Below are positions 4,211 to 52,126 of a DNA stretch of 64,000 nt, piece by piece. Position 1 is the first letter of the stretch. The number at the start of each line of letters is the position of its first letter. A program made the position numbers and the translations under genes. Below the pieces are notes generated by a model, which saw only the letters and a program-made list of their open reading frames with translations, made no database searches and was not told where the DNA came from. The DNA is taken from the NCBI GenBank assembly GCA_963669155.1, contig OZ022593.1, forward strand, positions 15,952,258 to 16,016,257. Reading direction: 5' to 3'. The stretch is from Arbacia lixula (lineage: Eukaryota; Echinodermata; Echinoidea; Arbacioida; Arbaciidae).

Positions 4211-4328
4211 TAATGGTTATAATTGATCATCTATGTTGAACCAGAGAGGTGGCAGAGACCCACCTCTTTGGTCTAACTGATAATATACAGTGGTCAGTGA
4301 CAGGTACATCATGCCCAGAAAATAGAGT

Positions 4329-4605
4329 CAAACCTGTCTACAAAGACCACTTTTTATAAAGACTACTGTTTACAAAGACCACTGTCTAAAAATAACACTG
4401 TCCATAAGGACCACTGTTTACAAAAACTACCGCCAAAAAAGACCACTGTTTATAAGGACCACTGTTTACATGGACCCCCTGTCTATAAAGACCCCTTACC
4501 TTGATTCCCTTTGAAGCAGTTAGCATGCACCAGTACCTGTATATAAAGACTACTTGCCCATAAACACCACCGCTTTCTTTGGGGTAGTCTTTATAAACAG
4601 GTTCA
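4329..4605. mobile_element. Miniature element built of AAAGACCAC repeats
   Basis: The termini are inverted (TCAAACCTGTCTACAAAGAC and the complement of GTCTTTATAAACAGGTTCAA), and the left half is a tandem of degenerate 18-20 bp units containing ACCACTGTTTAYAARG. The unit is an extension of the terminal repeat sequence, so the array may have grown from the terminus. Confidence 0.6.
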
Positions 4606-4620
4606 ACTGCCAAACTAAAG

Positions 4621-5089
4621 GGGCGTCTTCATTAGCTCGAGCTGGGCAAAATAGCGAGCTTGTTCTGATCGGGCTAGCTAGCCAGATCACGAAATAGCTA
4701 GCTATTTGCGTCTTCATTAGCCAGATCAGGCAAAATAGCTCGCTATTTGGTCGAGAAAATTTCCCAAGAAATCTTGGGCTAGATGGAGCTAGCTCGGAGT
4801 GTCTTCATTCGCCTGAAAATTTCTCGATCCCGGCATGCATCTGCCAACACGAGGCATTGTTTACGTATTAGGTTTTTACACGTGCGTGAATGCAAGCTCA
4901 CAAACGAAGCCATGCTGCCGTAGCCTATTCCCGTCGCACACTGCTGCTATGTGCGAACTCGGGATAATTTATGCAACCCGAGTATCCCGAGTTTCGAGCT
5001 AATGAAGACGCTATTGTAACTTCAGGCTAGTTCCCCGGATCAGGAAAATAGCTCGCTATTTCGTCTGATCGGGCTAATGAAGACGCACC
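4621..5089. mobile_element. GTCTTCATT miniature element, copy 1 (full length)
   Basis: About 470 bp, from GGGCGTCTTCATTAGC to GCTAATGAAGACGCACC. The terminal motif GTCTTCATT recurs internally at about 4709 and 4801 and, inverted, near 5003. AAATAGCTCGCTATTT half-palindromes are scattered inside. Target duplication not resolved. Confidence 0.7.
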
Positions 5090-10914: not shown

Positions 10915-11905
10915 GATGTCTTGGTCCCTCTTCATTGGATGCCCAGCTGAGGAAGGGAAACATACAACCCCGTTCACACCCAGTCCATTATGTTTTCTTT
11001 AATCCTTTGGGTTCCTTTGGTCCCTCTTCATTAGATGCCCAGCTGAGGATATGAAACATACAACCCTGTTCACATTCAGTGCATTATGTTTTCTTTCATC
11101 CTTTCTATGCTATGGGTTCCTTTGGTCCCTCTTCATTAGATGCCCAGCTGAGGATGTGAAACATACAACCCCGTTCACACCCAGTCCATTATGTTTTCTT
11201 TCATCCTTTCTATGCTATGGGTTCCTTTGGTTCCTCTTCATTAGATGCCCAGCTGAGGATGTGAAACATACAACCCCCGTTCACACCCAGTCCATTTTGT
11301 TTTCTTTAATCCTTTCTATACTATGGGTTCCTTTGGTCCCTCTTCATTAGATGCCCAACTGAGCATGGGAAACATACAACCCCGTTCACACTCAGTTCAT
11401 TATGTTTTCTTTCATCCTTTCCATGCTATGGGTTCCTGTGGTCTCTCTCTCTTCATTAGATGCCCAGCTGAGGATAGAAAACATACAACCCCGTTCACAC
11501 TCAGTCCATTATGTTTCCTTTAATCCTTTCCATGCTATGGGTTCCTTTGGTCCCTCTTCATTAGATACCCAGCTAAGGATGGGAAACATACAACCCCATT
11601 CATTCACACTCAGTCTATTATGTTTTCTTTAATCCTTTCCATGCTATGGGTTCCTGTGGTCTGTCTCTTCATTAGATACCCAGCTGGGAATGGGAAACAT
11701 ACAACCCTGTTCACACTCAGTCTATTATGTTCTTTAATCCTTTCCATGCTACGGGTTCCTGTGGTCTGTCTCTTCATTAGATACCCAGCTGGGAATGACA
11801 AACATGAATCCTGTTCACACTCGTTCAGCACACTCTGGAAAAGAACATTTTACAATCTTCTCCATGCCATGGGCTCCCTTGGTCTGTCTTCATTGACAAT
11901 TCTTC
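10915..11905 (+). repeat. Tandem array, about nine 104-111 bp units
   Basis: Unit contains GGTCCCTCTTCATTAGATGC, CCAGCTGAGGATGGGAAACA, TACAACCCCGTTCACAC and TCAGTCCATTATGTTTTCTT. Conserved CCAGCTGAG cores near 10943, 11038, 11143, 11248, 11352, 11463, 11567, 11678 and 11787, then a decayed tail. It spans several ORFs (11051-11985) that are array artefacts. Confidence 0.9.
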
Positions 11906-21907: not shown

Positions 21908-22955
21908 GACAAGTAAGGGATGAAGTTCTGGGTGAAACCTAAACTAGCCAGCAGGCTGTGATCAAGATATTCGTCAGCGAGGCTAATTGAACCATGGGGA
22001 CACCAGGGTAACCACCCTGGCTTCAGAGGGGATCAGAGGTGCTGACATGGGGGGCAACCATGCGCCCCTCTGTTTGGTACCCCAAGAGAGGGGAGATCAT
22101 TGGTGCAAGGTGTTGAGGTGAGGTGTCTGTGACCTGCAGTGGCATTTACTAGAGGGGAGGGGGCATTTAGATGGAGGGGGGGGGGGGGTTACCTGGCTTC
22201 AGAGGGGATCATCTGATCTGACATGGTGGGGGGGGGCAGCTATGGGCCCCTCTGTTTTCCTTCTAGAGAGGGGAAATCATTGGTGCAAAAGTGTTCAGGT
22301 GAGGTGTCTGTGACCTGCGGTGGTGGCATTTACAAGAGGGGAGGGGGAATTGGCTACAGGGGGGGGGGGGGGGGGTTACCTGGCTTCAGAGGGGATCAGA
22401 GGATCTGACATGGTGGGAGGGGGGCAGCTATATGCCCCTCTGTTTTCCTTCTAGAGAAGGGAAATCATTGGTGCAAAGTGTTCAGGTGAGGTGTCTGTAA
22501 CCTACGGTGGCATTTACGAGAGGGGAGGGGGTAATTGGTTACAGGGGGGGGGGGAACCTGGCTTCAGAGGGGATCAGATGATCTGACATGATGGGGGGGG
22601 GGGCAGCCACTGGTATGCGCCCCTCTGTTTTCCTTCTAGAGAGGGGAAATCATTGGTGCAAAGTGTTTAGGTGAGGTGTCTGTGACCTACGGTGGCATTT
22701 ACGAGAGGGGAGGGGGGCAAGTGGTTAGAGGAGAGTCCAGTGGGGCAAAATGAGGGGGGAGGGGTAGCAGGTAGGGGTGCGAGGGTGGCAAACTTTAAAC
22801 TTTTTACATGTAACAGGTGGTGTAAATATCTTATTTATTGCAGACATGTAAGTTACCTCATGCCCCAGAGGTTCAATTAGCCTTGCTGAAGAACATCTTG
22901 GTCACATCTTGATGGCTAGTTTAGGTTTCACCTAGAACTTTATCCCTCACTTGTC
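21908..22955. mobile_element. 1.05-kb terminal-inverted-repeat element carrying a minisatellite
   Basis: 86-bp inverted termini (21908-21993 and 22870-22955) match at about 75 of 86 positions; both contain GGTGAAACCTAAACTAGCCA. The interior is a four-unit 180-bp G-rich tandem array and a short unique tail. No transposase is present. Confidence 0.75.
22016..22735 (+). repeat. Tandem array, four units of 177-187 bp, G-rich
   Basis: Each unit starts TGGCTTCAGAGGGGATCA, then GCCCCTCTGTTT, GGGGAAATCATTGGTGCAAA and GAGGTGTCTGTGACCT, and ends in a run of 9-16 G. Unit starts near 22016, 22193, 22380 and 22558. The G runs could form quadruplexes. Confidence 0.85.
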
Positions 22956-45060: not shown

Positions 45061-47318
45061 ATAGAGTGAGAAAGTGTAATGGAGATGTCTTGGGGCAAGA
45101 AAGAGAGAAAGGGAAATGAAAAATTGTAACAGGATACAATAAAAAAAGACATAGCCATAAAAAGTGGCATGGACATTAATGATTTAGCGTTTTCATGAGC
45201 CTAGAAATGACCATCAATTCAAACTGCGGTTTTAACCTTCCCTGCTAATAAAATCCATCTTTCCTTTATCAGTGAATAAATGTGACATTCAAGAAACCGA
45301 TTTACATCAATTACTGTCTCTGTATACATTATAAATGAGACACATATGTAGGATAAATCAAATTATTGAAAATTAGTTTCAGCAGCATGTATAATGAATC
45401 TTCAACTACACTGATTTATATCATTTAGTTTAGGCCCTACGGACTACCTTTTTCCAAAAGCTTATTTTACTTTATGAATGCAATGGTACTACGGTTAATT
45501 CGTGGATTGATGGAAATAAAGTTGCAATTGTTTTCAAAATTGACAGAATAAATGTCCATCAACCTGACATAAAATCAAGCATAATTACTTCCTTCTCAGA
45601 AACAATTAACACAAAAATTAAGTAACTTCCCAACTAGCAAAACAGGCTGTGGATCTAATAAAGACCAATTAGCTGATTGAAAAGGCTGGCCATATTCAAA
45701 GATTTTCATGAATCCATCTGGCTACTAAACCCAATATTAGGACTCCATCAAAGACTATGACTAGTCGGAGTGAAATCCATATTTATTTTGATATCAATGT
45801 ATAAATAACCTCACCTATATAACTGAAGTAAACAAAAAGAGAATAATTTACATTGGATTGAAACAATACATTAAATCATGGATATGAACATGATACTAAT
45901 AACTTACTCAAGAACAAATCTAGAACATCATAGCAATCCAGGCCATGGGGATATGAGTACAAGAAAATATAATTAGATCAATTTATGATATATAAAAAAA
46001 AAACAGTACAATTTTCTTCATAAATAGTAGCAAAACAGAAAAATGTTACCAAAAGAAGCATGATACAGGTTGTAGTTGAAAGAAGAAGGCACAGGGTAAT
46101 AAGTCAGGAATAGAGTGACATGACCAAATTAAACAATATAAGACGAGAGATAAAGTTGAGGTGGGTTGGTTGTCAGGGAAACAATTCCACAGGGCTCAAG
46201 GGGGCTTAGCGTCCTCCGCAAAGCAGAAAAAGAAGAGCCCACATGATCATCAGAAGGGTATGATGCTCAGGGAATTTATTTTAAGACGTGAGACTCAAAA
46301 CATGGTTGAACAATTATTGAAGAATTATTTCCTGGAGGAAAGGTGGCAGTTGGACCAAGAAATAAACAAACATGAAACCTAGGGCATACATTAATCGACA
46401 GACAAAGACATAAACAAACCTGAAACCTAGGGCATACATTTGATGAAGAGGCAGACAGTGCAAAAAGGTGGAATATTGGTGAAGGGCCTTCAGTAGAGCT
46501 AGAGATAAATAGATAGCAAAGTGAAGTCTCCCCACTGGCTGATCATGGCGGGGGGGGGGGGGGGGGGGCGCAAGGGCCGTGCACCCTCTCTAGTATTTTG
46601 AGAATCACACACTGAATATACATGTAAATACAACAATATTCAAAAAGATTTTAAACTGTGTCCCCTGTATTTTAAAATTTGCTGTCAGTGCCCTCTTTTT
46701 TTCTAAATCCTGGAATCGCGGCTGCTCCCTTTAAGAAGTATAAGCAAAGTCACAGGAGCTCTCCTGTACTTTCTCAGCGACTCAATTTCTCTCTCACGCC
46801 GTGTCCCGCTGACATTAAGCGTAGGGTGGCGGAGAGAGTATTCCTGTCAATGCGGCGGAAAAGAAGAAGAGCGTTTCCTACGATGATAATTATCCCATCC
46901 TCCCACACTAATTGCGAGTATCTGTTACCGGGTCGGCGGGCCAGGGGATGTGTGCTTGCTTGCATGACGGAATAGTTTGGAGACAGAAATCATTGGGGTT
47001 AATAGTTTTGAAGTAAATCTTGTTCATGTGTGCATTCTGGATTATGTGGATCAACCTATTTAGAATTATGTGTGAGATATAGCAACCTACACAAGGTAAA
47101 GACAAACAGAGAGGCAGATAGAAAGAGATAGAGAGGGAGGGAGGAGGAAGCTATGGTTCAAAGAGGTAAAATATTACTAATAAATACATTCATCACTTAC
47201 AAGTTAACATTATACAAAACTAAAGTTAAAATGATTCTGAAGATCTCTACATTTATAAGGGGGAAAAGAGAATGTGATGATTAAAGATTGATAAACCATA
47301 ATATTATATGCATCATAT

Positions 47319-47728
47319 TGTTACAGAAATAATAGGGTCTGCGGGGTAAGACTAGCCCCATGACCATGTGCTTGGTCAGCACAAAGTTTTGGTCCGGGGG
47401 AAGGGGATTTTTGAGGTGAGAAGAGATGCTGCTGACTCTGTGTGCAGGGTGGACGCGTTTGCGATGGAGCTGAGTGCCTGGAGTTGTGGGGTATGTTGGT
47501 AGCATGTGTGTTCTGTAACTATTTGGTGTGGCGTAGTGTAGTTTTGAGAAGGCAAATGTCTAACCTGTAACGGTGACTATGTAAATATCAGTAAATAAAC
47601 GCGAATTAATTGTTTGTAGATTAATTTAATATCACATATATCCCAGTTGTCTATGTTTCTGCGTCTAAATATCTCTCTTCTATTCCTCTATTAATTTTCC
47701 TATTTAAAGAATCGGCAGTTTTGCAACA
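47319..47728 (+). repeat. 5' LTR
   Basis: 410 bp, TG...CA ends with a short imperfect inverted terminus (TGTTACA / TGCAACA). AATAAA lies at 47594-47599. It matches the 3' LTR except TTTAAAGAAT versus TTCAAAGGAT near the end, implying recent insertion. Confidence 0.95.
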
Positions 47729-47729
47729 T

Positions 47730-47745
47730 TGGTGTCAGGAGTGGG
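47730..47745 (+). other. Primer binding site, tRNA-Leu type
   Basis: TGGTGTCAGGAGTGGG begins one base after the 5' LTR. It is the complement of CCCACTCCTGACACCA, the 3' acceptor/T-arm end typical of metazoan tRNA-Leu including the added CCA. Confidence 0.85.
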
Positions 47746-48092
47746 GTAGGAAATTTGGTTATGTTAGCGGGATATTTGGTTTAGAATCATGACAAACCGT
47801 TGTTACAGTGCCTTTGTCAGATCAGTGCAAGGCAGGAGGAGGGTCAGTACATGTACTTGTATTACGTGTAATGTCCATGCAGCATGCATGCACAACCCTT
47901 TGTACGTGTAGTGTGTTGCGAACTAGTGTTATGCACATGATGTGTGTGTAGAAAATGGGATGCTCAGTGTGTGTATGGGCAGAGAGTGTGACCAGAGAAC
48001 CAGGGGGAAGATGATAGGGGACTGCATGCACCTGAGAGAAAGTTTTGGGGCATTGTGTTAGTCTCAGTTTACAGACCCTGTTTAGAGTTGTC

Positions 48093-49115
48093 ATGGGGTC
48101 AGCTCGAGGAAAGAGGCGCGGGCGCGCTGCACAAAAAGGCTTCGGGGCCTTGGTGGAAGCATTCTTTTCTTTTGCTCAAAGGACAGAGCAAAATCAGGCG
48201 GAGATTATGGGTAGGCTGGATCGCTTAATGCCACCACCAACGGCGCTCGCCCCGCCCATCCCAGCGCCTCGTTTAAAACCTGTGGCGTCTCCCCGACAAC
48301 TCCATCCTGTATCCCATAGGGCAGGAAGAGAGAGGGAGGATCCATTGTTTGAGTTGCAAGAGGCAGCAAGAGAGACGATGGATCCATTGCTTGAGTTGCA
48401 AGAGGCAGCAAGAGAGACGGTAGGTCCCGTAGTTGAGTCGAAAGAGGCAGCAAGAGAGACGGTAGATCCCGTAGTTGAGTTGCAAGAGGCAGCGAGAGAG
48501 ACGGTAGATCCATTGCTTGAGTTGCAAGAGGCAGCAAGAGAGACGGTAGATCCATTGCTTGAGTTGCAAGAGGCAGCAAGAGAGACGATGGATCCATTGC
48601 TTGAGTTGCAAGAGGCAGCAAGAGAGACGGTAGGTCCCGTAGTTGAGTCGAAAGAGGCAGCAAGAGAGACGGTAGATCCCGTAGTTGAGTTGCAAGAGGC
48701 AACGAGAGAGACGGTAGATCCATTGCTTGAGTTGCAAGAGGCAACAAGAGAGACGGTAGATCCAGTGCTTGAGTTGCAAGAGGCAACAAGAGAGACGGTA
48801 GATCCCATAGTTGAGTGGAAAGAGGAGGCGGCAAGAGAGACGGTGGATCCATTGCTTGAGTTGCAAGAGGCAACAAGAGAGACGGTAGATCCATTGCTTG
48901 AGTTGCAAGAGGCAACAAGAGAGACGGTAGATCCATTGCTTGAGTTGCAAGAGGCGGCAAGAGAGACAGTAGATCCCGTAGTTGAGTGGAAAGAGGCAGT
49001 AAGAGAGACGGTAGACCCCGTAGTTGAGTGGAAAGATGCAGCAAGAGAGGCGGTAGATTCCGTAGTTGAGTTGAAAGAGGAAACACGGACAGAGAGAAAG
49101 CCTCCAGAGAGGTAG
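48093..49115 (+). CDS. Retroelement ORF: basic leader plus 18 x 14-residue acidic repeat
   Basis: 340 codons from the first ATG (MGSARGKRRGRAAQKG..) to TAG. Residues 1 to about 80 are basic, then helical-looking (FGALVEAFFSFAQRTEQNQA), then proline-rich. From about residue 83 to the end lie 18 units on the pattern DPLLELQEAARETV, with variants GPVVESK.. and DPVVEWK... Unit 12 is one residue longer. Position and leader suggest a Gag-derived protein, but no capsid homology or zinc knuckle is visible, so Gag identity is inference. The in-frame segment upstream starts only with TTG. Heptad-like Leu/Val spacing allows an amphipathic helix or coiled coil. Confidence 0.7.
   Translation: MGSARGKRRGRAAQKGFGALVEAFFSFAQRTEQNQAEIMGRLDRLMPPPTALAPPIPAPRLKPVASPRQLHPVSHRAGREREDPLFELQEAARETMDPLLELQEAARETVGPVVESKEAARETVDPVVELQEAARETVDPLLELQEAARETVDPLLELQEAARETMDPLLELQEAARETVGPVVESKEAARETVDPVVELQEATRETVDPLLELQEATRETVDPVLELQEATRETVDPIVEWKEEAARETVDPLLELQEATRETVDPLLELQEATRETVDPLLELQEAARETVDPVVEWKEAVRETVDPVVEWKDAAREAVDSVVELKEETRTERKPPER
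48337..49085 (+). repeat. 42-bp coding minisatellite, about 18 units
   Basis: Unit AGAGAGACGGTAGATCCATT.. of 42 bp. Units 1-5 and 6-10 form a duplicated 210-bp block (same order of the two DPLLELQ, GPVVESK, DPVVELQ and DPLLELQ types), so the array grew by block duplication as well as unit slippage. One unit has a 3-bp insertion that keeps frame. The unit has no stop in several frames, which creates long antisense ORFs without meaning. Confidence 0.9.
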
Positions 49116-51337
49116 GGTTGGAACTAGGTGGGAAGCTCGTTTCCTTGTAGTGTTGGTCCTGAACGGCGTAGAGATGAATTAAGTAGGGTGATAGCTCATT
49201 TATTTTTGTTTTGGTTACATCCTGAACTTTACTGGTTTTCCTACCTAGCAGAGCTAGAGTGCTTGAGAGTACATACCTGCTTAGGCAGGGATACAGCACG
49301 GTTTTGTTGGGAAATATCAGTGGAGGGACGAGGTAGCTAATCTGTGAAATAAGTAGTTTGGTTGGTAAGGTTTATCAGTTAAGGTGCCACAACCAATGTA
49401 GTTGCATGAATGCCATGTTTTAACAACCTCCTTGCTCCTCCGTAGTTCACCTTTATATGCTACAGCTTGGCATAGACGGCACAGCGTGGTAAAACAGCCA
49501 GAAGATACTACTCAGATACTCCATCACCTGAGGATCCTGCGAGACGCGCTGATTCAAGCACACGAGGCAGACTAACGGACGAGCGCAGCAATGTCGTCAT
49601 ATCCGGCTATCTAGAAAGGTACATTGTGTAACATTTGGTGGCTTGCTGAGCACGAATAATGAGCAAGTACTCGACATGAAAGTACATTCCGGTAAGAAAG
49701 CTTTCGCTGAATAAGTGCTGGATGGTTTTCTTATTATTTTCGATGGTGCGTCCCTCGTTTTGCTCGGGATCGGGAGCCCGGACAGTTGCACTCATTGACA
49801 CTTCGTCGTCTTGGAGGTGAGCGGACCGTCTTCACGTACCAGAGCGTCCTGAAGTCGTGAACACGAAGCAGGAGAGCGAAACGTCTTAGCGTGCAGTAGG
49901 GAACTAAGTTACCGAGCAGAAGGTTATTAAATGTGCTTTGTCGGCGTATTGGACGCTCCGTGCAGCAAGTCAGGCCCATTTTCGTCCTTCATAACTGAGG
50001 TAGCTACATCGCCCAGTCGCCGATGATTTAAAAGTAACGTGTCTGTTTGAAAGCAACGCAATGAAGTGAGAGGACTCCCGTTTGGAATTGTGTATAATCT
50101 AGATTCACTCGGATATCGATTACAGACTGCCCATGGACGTTAGATAGCAAATCGCGATTGGACTAACGATAATCTACTATATGTAGTAGCATCCTGGAGA
50201 AATTTAGTGCTAGAGCATTATTAAGCAGCATGATACGATATTTGGTTGGTGTAACAACATAGGCTTGGACTCTCTTAGTTGGTTCATTGATTTTGATTAA
50301 CTTCAAATTTGTGTCTCATTCGCTTTGATGTAATGCATTTTGTTTGTTTTGATTCTAGCTGTTTTGCGATCAGCTGGAATGTTTCACGCTGTCACGCGAG
50401 ATTCAATAATGTTTATCACTCAGGAAAGAAATGCAGTTTTGATTCCTTTGGTATGGGTCGTATTGGCAACTCAAAATTAATGTGTCGCTGTGTGGAAAGC
50501 TACACATGTATGTGGTCCAAGGATTTTGTATCTCAGACATTGTTACCAGGGGTAGCAATTATGACGAGAAGAATTTCATTTGTTGTGAATTTTGGCAATT
50601 AACACTGGCGTTTTTGTGTTGTTGTTCTGAAGGATAAGAAATATGTTGTACAGATTGTGAAATTAAGTAACGTGCCTCATAACGATATGTTATTGCATTT
50701 AACCTTATTATACATGTAATTGCTTTTTGTTTTGTTTATATCTGATCAATTAGGGTCATTGTTTGTTACGGTATATGAATTTGTAAAGCAGGTTCATGAA
50801 GACATAACAGAATATAAAAGATTGTACGGATGTAGGGGCATTGAACGGCTGTGTGGAGGTCAAAAAGGAGTATCTGTTACCTCGTGACGATTCGGAACTG
50901 GTTGTAATAAGTGTATGATCGTGTTTACTCTTATGGTATTTCCAGTCGTGTACGTACAATACCAGAATAAGTGACACTTACCTTAAAAATTGTAGCGCTA
51001 TTGTTTTGTTGTAAATTCTGTTGGATTTTTTTACAGGCGATATATGCCATGACCGTATATGCTCGATACGTGTGGTAAAGTCAACCACATATTTCGAAGG
51101 TGTAACCGTCAGTTTGTAAATGGTAATGACAGTGTAAATGGCTGTTAGCAGATAAAACTAGTGATTAATACGTTCTAATTCTGTGTTCAGAAACCTTATA
51201 ATTTGTTATATGTTGTTTTAGGTTAATAATTCGTTAGTAACCATGTTTACTCAACTGCTTATCTAAATGTACTAGTTACGAAGCCTTACGTAGTACACCT
51301 GAGTTAAAGATTAGTGTTGAACGGGACGTTCAAATTT
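49116..51337 (+). other. Retroelement interior without recognisable coding sequence
   Basis: About 2.2 kb between the ORF stop and the purine tract. Short ORFs (for example 49128-49340, 50309-50602) show no reverse transcriptase, integrase or zinc-finger motifs. It may hold packaging or 3' UTR sequence. Confidence 0.6.
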
Positions 51338-51350
51338 AAGGAGGGGGCAA
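51338..51350 (+). other. Polypurine tract
   Basis: AAGGAGGGGGCAA directly precedes the TG of the 3' LTR, the expected position for plus-strand priming. Confidence 0.85.
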
Positions 51351-51760
51351 TGTTACAGAAATAATAGGGTCTGCGGGGTAAGACTAGCCCCATGACCATG
51401 TGCTTGGTCAGCACAAAGTTTTGGTCCGGGGGAAGGGGATTTTTGAGGTGAGAAGAGATGCTGCTGACTCTGTGTGCAGGGTGGACGCGTTTGCGATGGA
51501 GCTGAGTGCCTGGAGTTGTGGGGTATGTTGGTAGCATGTGTGTTCTGTAACTATTTGGTGTGGCGTAGTGTAGTTTTGAGAAGGCAAATGTCTAACCTGT
51601 AACGGTGACTATGTAAATATCAGTAAATAAACGCGAATTAATTGTTTGTAGATTAATTTAATATCACATATATCCCAGTTGTCTATGTTTCTGCGTCTAA
51701 ATATCTCTCTTCTATTCCTCTATTAATTTTCCTATTCAAAGGATCGGCAGTTTTGCAACA
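51351..51760 (+). repeat. 3' LTR
   Basis: 410 bp, identical to the 5' LTR except two substitutions near the 3' end. AATAAA at 51626-51631. Followed by ATAT, the same four bases that precede the 5' LTR. Confidence 0.95.
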
Positions 51761-52126
51761 ATATAATGTTGAACATCCAGTCCATCAATATTGGCCATGG
51801 TACATAGTACATCAAAGGAATTTCATAAAAGAGAAAGCAAAAAGCATAACAATTCAACAGTATACAACATTATATGTATATATAAAACAGCAGGAATAAC
51901 AAATCATCAAGTGATGACAATTCATTGTAAAATACAATGAGTCATTGTTTTCATTAAAACATTCTTCCACATAGCATAGAAAAAGCCGACACACTCACAC
52001 AACTTACCATTGCACAAACAATTCAATTTTGGTCAATTATCATAATTCATACAAAAATACAACTACCCAACATTTTTCATCAAACAAAACATTAAAAGGC
52101 AAAGTAACACAGAGAGAAGACAAATT

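Follow-up and report, generated by a model that had tools for sequence, protein, structure and literature searches.

The most familiar non-autonomous long terminal repeat (LTR) families with interiors of several kilobases come from plants and mouse, and LARD elements join LTRs of several kilobases to a multi-kilobase interior lacking pol. ETn is described as an LTR family without coding capacity, retaining traces of retroviral homology and moved by its coding-competent relatives (MusD), and VL30 as a non-autonomous group packaged together with MLV, a helper from a different group (PMC6466679). A listing of non-autonomous LTR groups includes LARD and also TR-GAG, a terminal-repeat element with a GAG domain (PMC10025401), and TRIM elements are given as shorter than 1000 bp, with biv-TRIM likewise reported without an autonomous partner (PMC6934838). 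Here we analysed a 64,000-nucleotide stretch of the echinoid Arbacia lixula (contig OZ022593.1, positions 15,952,258 to 16,016,257; hereafter the window), which contains an LTR element of 4442 bp with a 340-codon open reading frame (ORF) and no pol genes. Together with its relatives in the same genome, this element very probably forms an LTR retrotransposon family that is non-autonomous and whose members have inserted repeatedly in recent times.

The element has the paired TG...CA LTRs, target site duplication, primer binding site (PBS) and polypurine tract (PPT) of an LTR retrotransposon, and multiple independent insertions of it are present in the genome. Like ETn of the mouse ETn/MusD pair, it is a non-autonomous LTR family that would be mobilised by others; ETn, however, has an identified autonomous progenitor, whereas our searches found no sibling that shares the LTR ends, PBS context or PPT of this element. 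The mouse VL30/MLV pair offers a possible likeness, since service by an unrelated helper lineage is one of the explanations that we consider here, although our element differs in carrying a minisatellite ORF in its interior. LARD resembles it in having LTRs around a multi-kilobase interior without pol, but belongs to plants; an animal genome, an LTR of 410 bp and an interior ORF place our element outside that group. It also falls outside TR-GAG of plants, having no Pfam Gag family but just a probable Gag N-terminus recognised by homology to another locus, and outside TRIM, its length being 4442 bp, although TRIM elements (plants, bivalves, ants) are likewise non-autonomous LTR elements that occur in animals, biv-TRIM among them being without a known partner too. 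A literature search of titles and abstract openings found no description of this family. It is ordinary in kind; what sets it apart is an ORF that couples a Gag-like N-terminus to a minisatellite, together with the fact that no sibling helper has been established.

Ten young copies of one interior, pol-less in the window copy

To place the window copy within its genome, we searched the 607-Mb assembly of 590 contigs, which returned at least 49 matches to the LTR and 36 to the interior. Ten copies share the same interior, as the preliminary description of this locus had anticipated, and lie on ten contigs with differing flanks: C18 (the window copy), C5, C16, C10, C3, C17, C6, C4, C8 and C22. 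The 5' part of C22 is missing, the 5' LTR and leader of C8 are both interrupted, and the 3' LTR of C6 is cut. The two LTRs of the window copy differ by two substitutions over 410 bp, with no gaps. Among the other full pairs, substitutions numbered 1/411 (plus one gap) in C5, 1/410 in C16, 0/410 in C10 and C3, 0/414 in C17 and 0/425 in C4, and among the partial pairs 0/283 in C6, 1/315 in C8 and 2/168 in C22. A range of 0-2 substitutions over the ten pairs bears out the recent insertion that had been proposed for the window copy. All nine testable copies carry a perfect 4-bp target duplication (ATAT in four, then GTAA, AACT, AGAC, GGTC and TGTC; C6 is not testable). The genome also holds older remnants and solo LTRs of the family, of which L054, L055 and L056 each have a 4-bp duplication of their own. 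Between copies the LTRs diverge by 0-11%, although the pairs inside one copy are nearly identical, and several lineages must therefore have been active lately.

Recombination between copies was assessed in the alignment of the region past the repeat array, with differences counted per column segment. C10 and C16 differ at 2 of 393 sites in columns 0-400, at 5 of 743 in columns 2000-2810 and at 6 of 186 in columns 1800-2000; in the successive segments of the middle they differ at 10/183, 5/45, 22/170, 11/171, 38/117, 18/135 and 16/193 sites (5-32%). Here C10 stays near C18 and C22 where C16 diverges, with one segment offering just 11 comparable sites. C22, for its part, changes from C4/C10-like to C5-like along the alignment. 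C10 and C22 are therefore mosaics of other copies, a pattern that fits retroviral-type recombination; mosaics in LTR elements usually arise when reverse transcription switches template between RNAs packaged together. Gene conversion between loci could also make mosaics, as would be expected had the copies spread as DNA by segmental duplication or gene conversion. The ten contigs with different flanks, the individual 4-bp duplications of the nine testable copies and the near-identity of LTR pairs within copies that stand 0-11% apart make such a spread highly improbable.

All 38 stop-to-stop frames of at least 40 codons in the window copy's interior were scanned against Pfam, together with one peptide of copy C16. 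No reverse transcriptase, protease or integrase family was found in the 38 frames, in agreement with what had been noticed in the 3.6-kb interior; a reverse transcriptase domain, the find named beforehand as speaking against that description, did not emerge from this profile search of the window copy. The nearest pol-type name was gag_pre-integrs (E 0.097, minus strand), which we took as chance. The sole match over a curated cut-off, DUF6799 in a minus-strand frame of the repeat array (27.1 versus 26.8 bits), was taken as low complexity, no single stretch being significant, and the 340-codon ORF gave ten matches, all under the cut-off. The longest plus-strand frame 3' of the ORF has 101 codons in the window copy, and among the three longest frames of each other copy none of at least 100 codons lies 3' of the ORF. 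Interiors range from 2950 to 3947 bp among the copies (3622 bp in the window copy), too small to hold an additional pol. An element made autonomous by a divergent, unrecognised polymerase would account for the missing helper and for nothing else; with such short frames, 38 of 38 frames free of polymerase and a post-array region full of indels, it is scarcely credible.

Since the interior of the window copy is without pol, movement would have to occur in trans, as the preliminary description had suggested. Taken together, the LTR pairs, 4-bp duplications, ten copies, mosaics and pol-less interior of the window copy point to a young, propagating, non-autonomous LTR family. The protease-reverse transcriptase-RNase H-integrase order of Ty3/Gypsy pol is absent from the window copy, and the only pointers to that superfamily are the 4-bp duplications and a Gag-like homology, from which we infer it.

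The LTRs, ATAT duplication and purine tract noted earlier agree with our coordinates and alignment (Table 1), and so does the tRNA-Leu-type primer site. Pairing starts one base past the LTR and runs for 16 contiguous bases with two tRNA-Leu(CAG) genes of the same genome. The tRNA 3'-end pattern expected from the site had 11 exact and 5 one-mismatch matches in the genome; when ARAGORN was run on three matching loci, both exact ones proved to be tRNA-Leu(CAG) and the one-mismatch piece held no tRNA. The site reads GGGGT in the window copy and GGGAT in other copies, whose match is thereby, as judged by eye, two bases longer. In the leader, a two-sided change was seen in 1 of 102 predicted pairs among eight copies, so that the fold is without covariation support, and no Rfam family matched the window at gathering scores.

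Table 1. Features of the window copy (C18) in window positions
Feature	Position	Strand	Basis
Target site duplication ATAT, left	47315..47318	.	sequence read at element edge
5' LTR, 410 bp, ends TGTTACAG...TTGCAACA	47319..47728	+	LTR pair comparison
5' leader	47729..48092	+	between 5' LTR and ORF
Primer binding site, 16 contiguous bases complementary to tRNA-Leu(CAG) 3' end plus CCA	47730..47745	+	
ORF, 340 codons: unique N-terminal part (48093-48308), then 14-residue repeats; stop TAG overlaps predicted splice donor	48093..49115	+	
42-bp tandem array, ~18 units	48320..49080	+	Tandem Repeats Finder
Predicted intron 1, 334 nt, AGAGAG/GTAGGG ... TCCTCCGTAG/T	49112..49445	+	splice-site reading
Predicted exon 2	49446..49618	+	early stop in joined frame of window copy
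149-nt block, possible lost intron, acceptor now mutated	49619..49767	+	copy comparison
Remaining interior, indel-rich between copies, without protein family match	49768..51337	+	
Polypurine tract AAGGAGGGGGCAA, immediately 5' of 3' LTR	51338..51350	+	
3' LTR, 410 bp, 2 substitutions relative to 5' LTR	51351..51760	+	
Target site duplication ATAT, right	51761..51764	.	sequence read at element edge

Several further structures were observed around the family. The leader of the C8 copy contains a MITE-like (miniature inverted-repeat transposable element) insert of ~400 bp with inverted termini AGTGAGCTTTCGTTAT...ATAACGAAAGCTC (L047, ~4245-4640), and its 5' LTR (L047:474-3842) is interrupted by ~3.4 kb of other sequence. 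At L050:2211-3856, immediately behind an exon that encodes a Methyltransf_FA domain (PF12248, E 2e-9), lies the degraded 3' portion of a related element, which terminates in a PPT and LTR start. Family LTR starts also occur as an inverted pair, 236 bp apart, at C1:43750255 and C1:43750491. Elsewhere in the window, tandem repeats were found at 10921-11822 and 22016-22716, with units of ~105/211 bp and 185 bp.

The repeat-built ORF and its Gag-like start

A DNA search with the leader and ORF start returned nine family copies and two weak extra matches, one at C2:22158493 inside L051, a decayed relative, and the other at C8:7044158-7044318 in a decayed locus (L066). A 118-codon frame of L066 is homologous to the ORF start over 67 codons, with one gap of ~35 residues (pairwise BLASTP E 3e-16), and across these codons the ratio of nonsynonymous to synonymous rates (dN/dS) is 0.28-0.34, with dS ~1. 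As a genome query, the frame recovered itself, a second fragment 1.4 kb off and all nine start-bearing family copies (E 2.9e-5 to 3.8e-4). An overlapping frame of L066, one shift away from the ORF-start homology, reads RPPLYDGKVPWEAYASQFVML; its motif PPLYDG..W..Y..QF is what we take to be the usual beginning of the Ty3/Gypsy Gag core. Beside the Gag-like frame lies a Gypsy integrase (Pfam Integrase_H2C2 1.1e-19, rve 1.8e-9) with PDB matches to Ty3 Gag-Pol (2.7e-12) and PFV integrase (2.8e-14). Near L066, a PNMA/Gag-like frame was also seen on the minus strand of L067:4582-4884 (PF14893, E 1.7e-4, under the cut-off).

With some reserve, we favour a genuine Gag N-terminus as the identity of the ORF start; the following points weigh against it. 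Pfam found no domain in the Gag-like frames of L066, including the piece with the motif, and that Gag-core-like piece has no second match in the genome. The Gag identity of L066 is read from the assumed motif, which lies in a different frame from the start, and from its position. Furthermore, the L066 integrase is 96% identical to that of an element at C1:664224 that has another type of Gag, bearing Retrotrans_gag and zinc knuckles; the L066 pieces may therefore stem from two elements.

Beyond its unique start, the ORF is built of the 42-bp array, which measures 456-1002 nt among nine copies. The unit length is divisible by three and the consensus has no stops in four of six frames, making ORF length a weak sign of selection, and we rejected array-driven length as evidence on these grounds. 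Units were counted where they had an AGAGAG start or could be filled in by spacing, so those altered there are under-counted; the 165 units obtained (78 distinct) showed, counted by copy, 417 nonsynonymous, 259 synonymous and 4 stop changes. The frame is open to the common end in seven of the nine copies having a start codon and broken in C5 and C6. AlphaFold returned a mean pLDDT of 43 for the ORF, with a helical tendency alone and no usable model.

The unique 216-nt start has 18 variable sites among nine copies. Over 15 pairs of six copies, which are not independent of one another, synonymous and nonsynonymous differences sum to 47 and 62 over ~56 and ~160 sites, giving a ratio of the two proportions (pN/pS) of ~0.5. 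The same start contains no indels in the nine copies, whereas the leader has 9 gap blocks (348 scored columns once the C8 insert is removed) and the 2021 columns past exon 3 have 57. Predicted intron 1 has 4 in 340 columns, and exon 2, where substitutions are near-neutral, has 4 (16, 12, 5 and 1 nt) in 194 columns.

The preliminary description took the intact ORF to be retained because its product aids packaging or expression. The open frame in seven of nine copies, the indel-free start and the dN/dS against L066 are in favour of such retention. Against it, pN/pS within the family is mild; exon 2 evolves near-neutrally, with some gap blocks that are not multiples of three; the non-coding intron 1 also has few gap blocks; stops occur in 4 of 165 array units and two of nine copies are broken; the N-terminus could be conserved as an RNA packaging sequence; and the constraint against L066 includes the history of L066 itself. 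With a unit stop-free in most frames, copies too young for much decay and constraint this mild, intactness is a weak argument for function, and we consider the proposed role unlikely. Selection on an ORF protein is thus weakly to moderately indicated; the ORF may be translated, and a function is at most predicted. The 340-codon, repeat-built ORF described as unusual is real, but the homology of its start to the L066 frame makes it look like a shortened Gag and not like a new gene. The ORF is accordingly less special than was first held, being probably a truncated Gag N-terminus lengthened by a minisatellite.

A GT-AG intron of 334 nt (intron 1) is predicted at the ORF stop codon. Its donor (AGAGAG/GTAGGG) and a pyrimidine-rich acceptor 334-338 nt later are present in 10 of 10 copies. 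The joined frame ends at a common stop in C16, C10, C3 and C17 and reads through in C4; it stops early in the window copy and C8, while C5 and C6 are already broken and C22 has no start. A second block of 149-155 nt, present in C18, C10, C22 and C4 and absent from the other six copies, could be another intron: the junction in the six block-less copies is the remainder expected from GT-AG removal at the inferred ancestral site. It is nevertheless quite possible, if short of probable, that the block marks a plain deletion rather than intron loss and that intron 1 is a chance pair of splice sites. A 2-bp microhomology at the junction equally fits deletion, none of the four block-bearing copies keeps the exact acceptor needed for the observed junction, and exon 2 remains open in 5-8% of shuffles (four copies) regardless. 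Speaking for splicing are the sites conserved in every copy and the GT...AG-removal junction shared by the six block-less ones.

The search for a helper or autonomous sibling

Movement in trans calls for a helper, and the results of looking for one weigh against our reading of the family. Searches with the LTR ends, primer context and purine tract found none. The PPT-LTR junction, allowing up to three mismatches, had 11 matches in the genome, comprising the ten copies and one relic with no other element. The LTR start at 0-1 mismatch had 32 genomic matches, all at known family places or the relic L050, and at two mismatches it had 11 further matches, compared with 14 in a backwards control. 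Nine exact genomic matches to the LTR-PBS junction were all of the family, and six others were weak. No second same-strand LTR match 2-20 kb away was found besides the ten copies, with 41 of the 49 LTR places checked, and the same held for ten LTR-like loci judged by match positions alone, their flanks unread. The full-length, pol-carrying relative sharing LTR and primer site that the preliminary description had envisaged thus failed to appear in these searches, save for one weak lead, L058, which carries a family-type LTR fragment near an integrase.

Several candidates were set aside. The six weak LTR-PBS junction matches were rejected. A broader tRNA-Leu pattern gave 16 matches, nine of the family and seven others; six of the seven, together with C5:10701614, showed no LTR similarity when short pieces were compared by eye (C15:8548167 was left out). 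L060, with a tRNA-Leu-type site, is low-copy, its 22 matches being mostly partial. The C1:664224 element, which has a 1666-codon frame, was dismissed as a sibling after inspection of both ends, which showed no LTR pair, short matches to the family at chance level and a different Gag.

A local tblastn search with the L066 integrase and C1 Gag against 59 sources (L001-L058 and the window) gave one match, an integrase in L058 (C8:23676000-23683000). In this locus a family-type LTR fragment lies ~820 bp 3' of a 289-codon integrase frame (rve E 8.9e-14), which could make it the decayed 3' end of an autonomous sibling. The order and distance are right, the integrase frame is intact, and the fragment is 84% identical to the family LTR and complete at its 3' end. 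However, the 45 bp at the start of the LTR are missing from it, and it is part of a tandem duplication with one edge between integrase and LTR; no PPT was seen, the one interior match of 32 bases is at chance level, and the 2.5 kb upstream contain no LTR match, interior match or long frame. We regard descent from a sibling as improbable indeed, and as a weak lead L058 leaves our confidence in a non-autonomous family unchanged. Among the loci searched, then, L058 aside, no autonomous relative shares LTR and leader in the manner of an ETn/MusD pair. L058 also contains a tandem array of ~244-bp units made of family LTR fragments, an LTR turned satellite that adjoins the larger tandem duplication.

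Among the best 150 of 856 candidates in a search with the L066 integrase, integrases in frames of more than 1000 codons were plentiful. Gypsy-type integrases in stop-free frames of 1666-1720 codons were observed at C1:664224-664928 and on C17, C21, C71, C4, C5, C13 and C12, several with near-identical scores, and apparently belong to young autonomous families. Such abundant Gypsy elements with long open frames could act as helpers. The family is thus either moved by an unrelated lineage or has a helper of its own that has disappeared, has escaped recognition or is not in the assembly.

Proposed life cycle and significance

We propose that RNA transcribed from the 5' LTR would be packaged by the Gag of another, probably Ty3/Gypsy, element. 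Primed by tRNA-Leu, it would be reverse transcribed, with switches of template between RNAs packaged in one particle, and the cDNA would be integrated by the integrase of the helper. The transcript may splice at the end of the ORF, the unspliced RNA being the form that would be copied. In the ancestor, gag probably lost everything past its N-terminal ~70 codons, and a 42-bp minisatellite would then have grown in frame at that point.

We speculate, while holding it distinctly unlikely, that the ORF product is a working Gag fragment, with a basic N-terminus and a predicted helix, that joins the helper particle and is extended by a fast-evolving helical 14-residue repeat. If true, a parasite element would come with an adaptor of its own for exploiting unrelated Gypsy particles, and this would explain why no sibling helper was found. 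With ten datable copies, visible recombination and a probable truncated Gag, the family offers a compact natural experiment, raising the question of which Gypsy lineage moves it and whether the Gag fragment helps.

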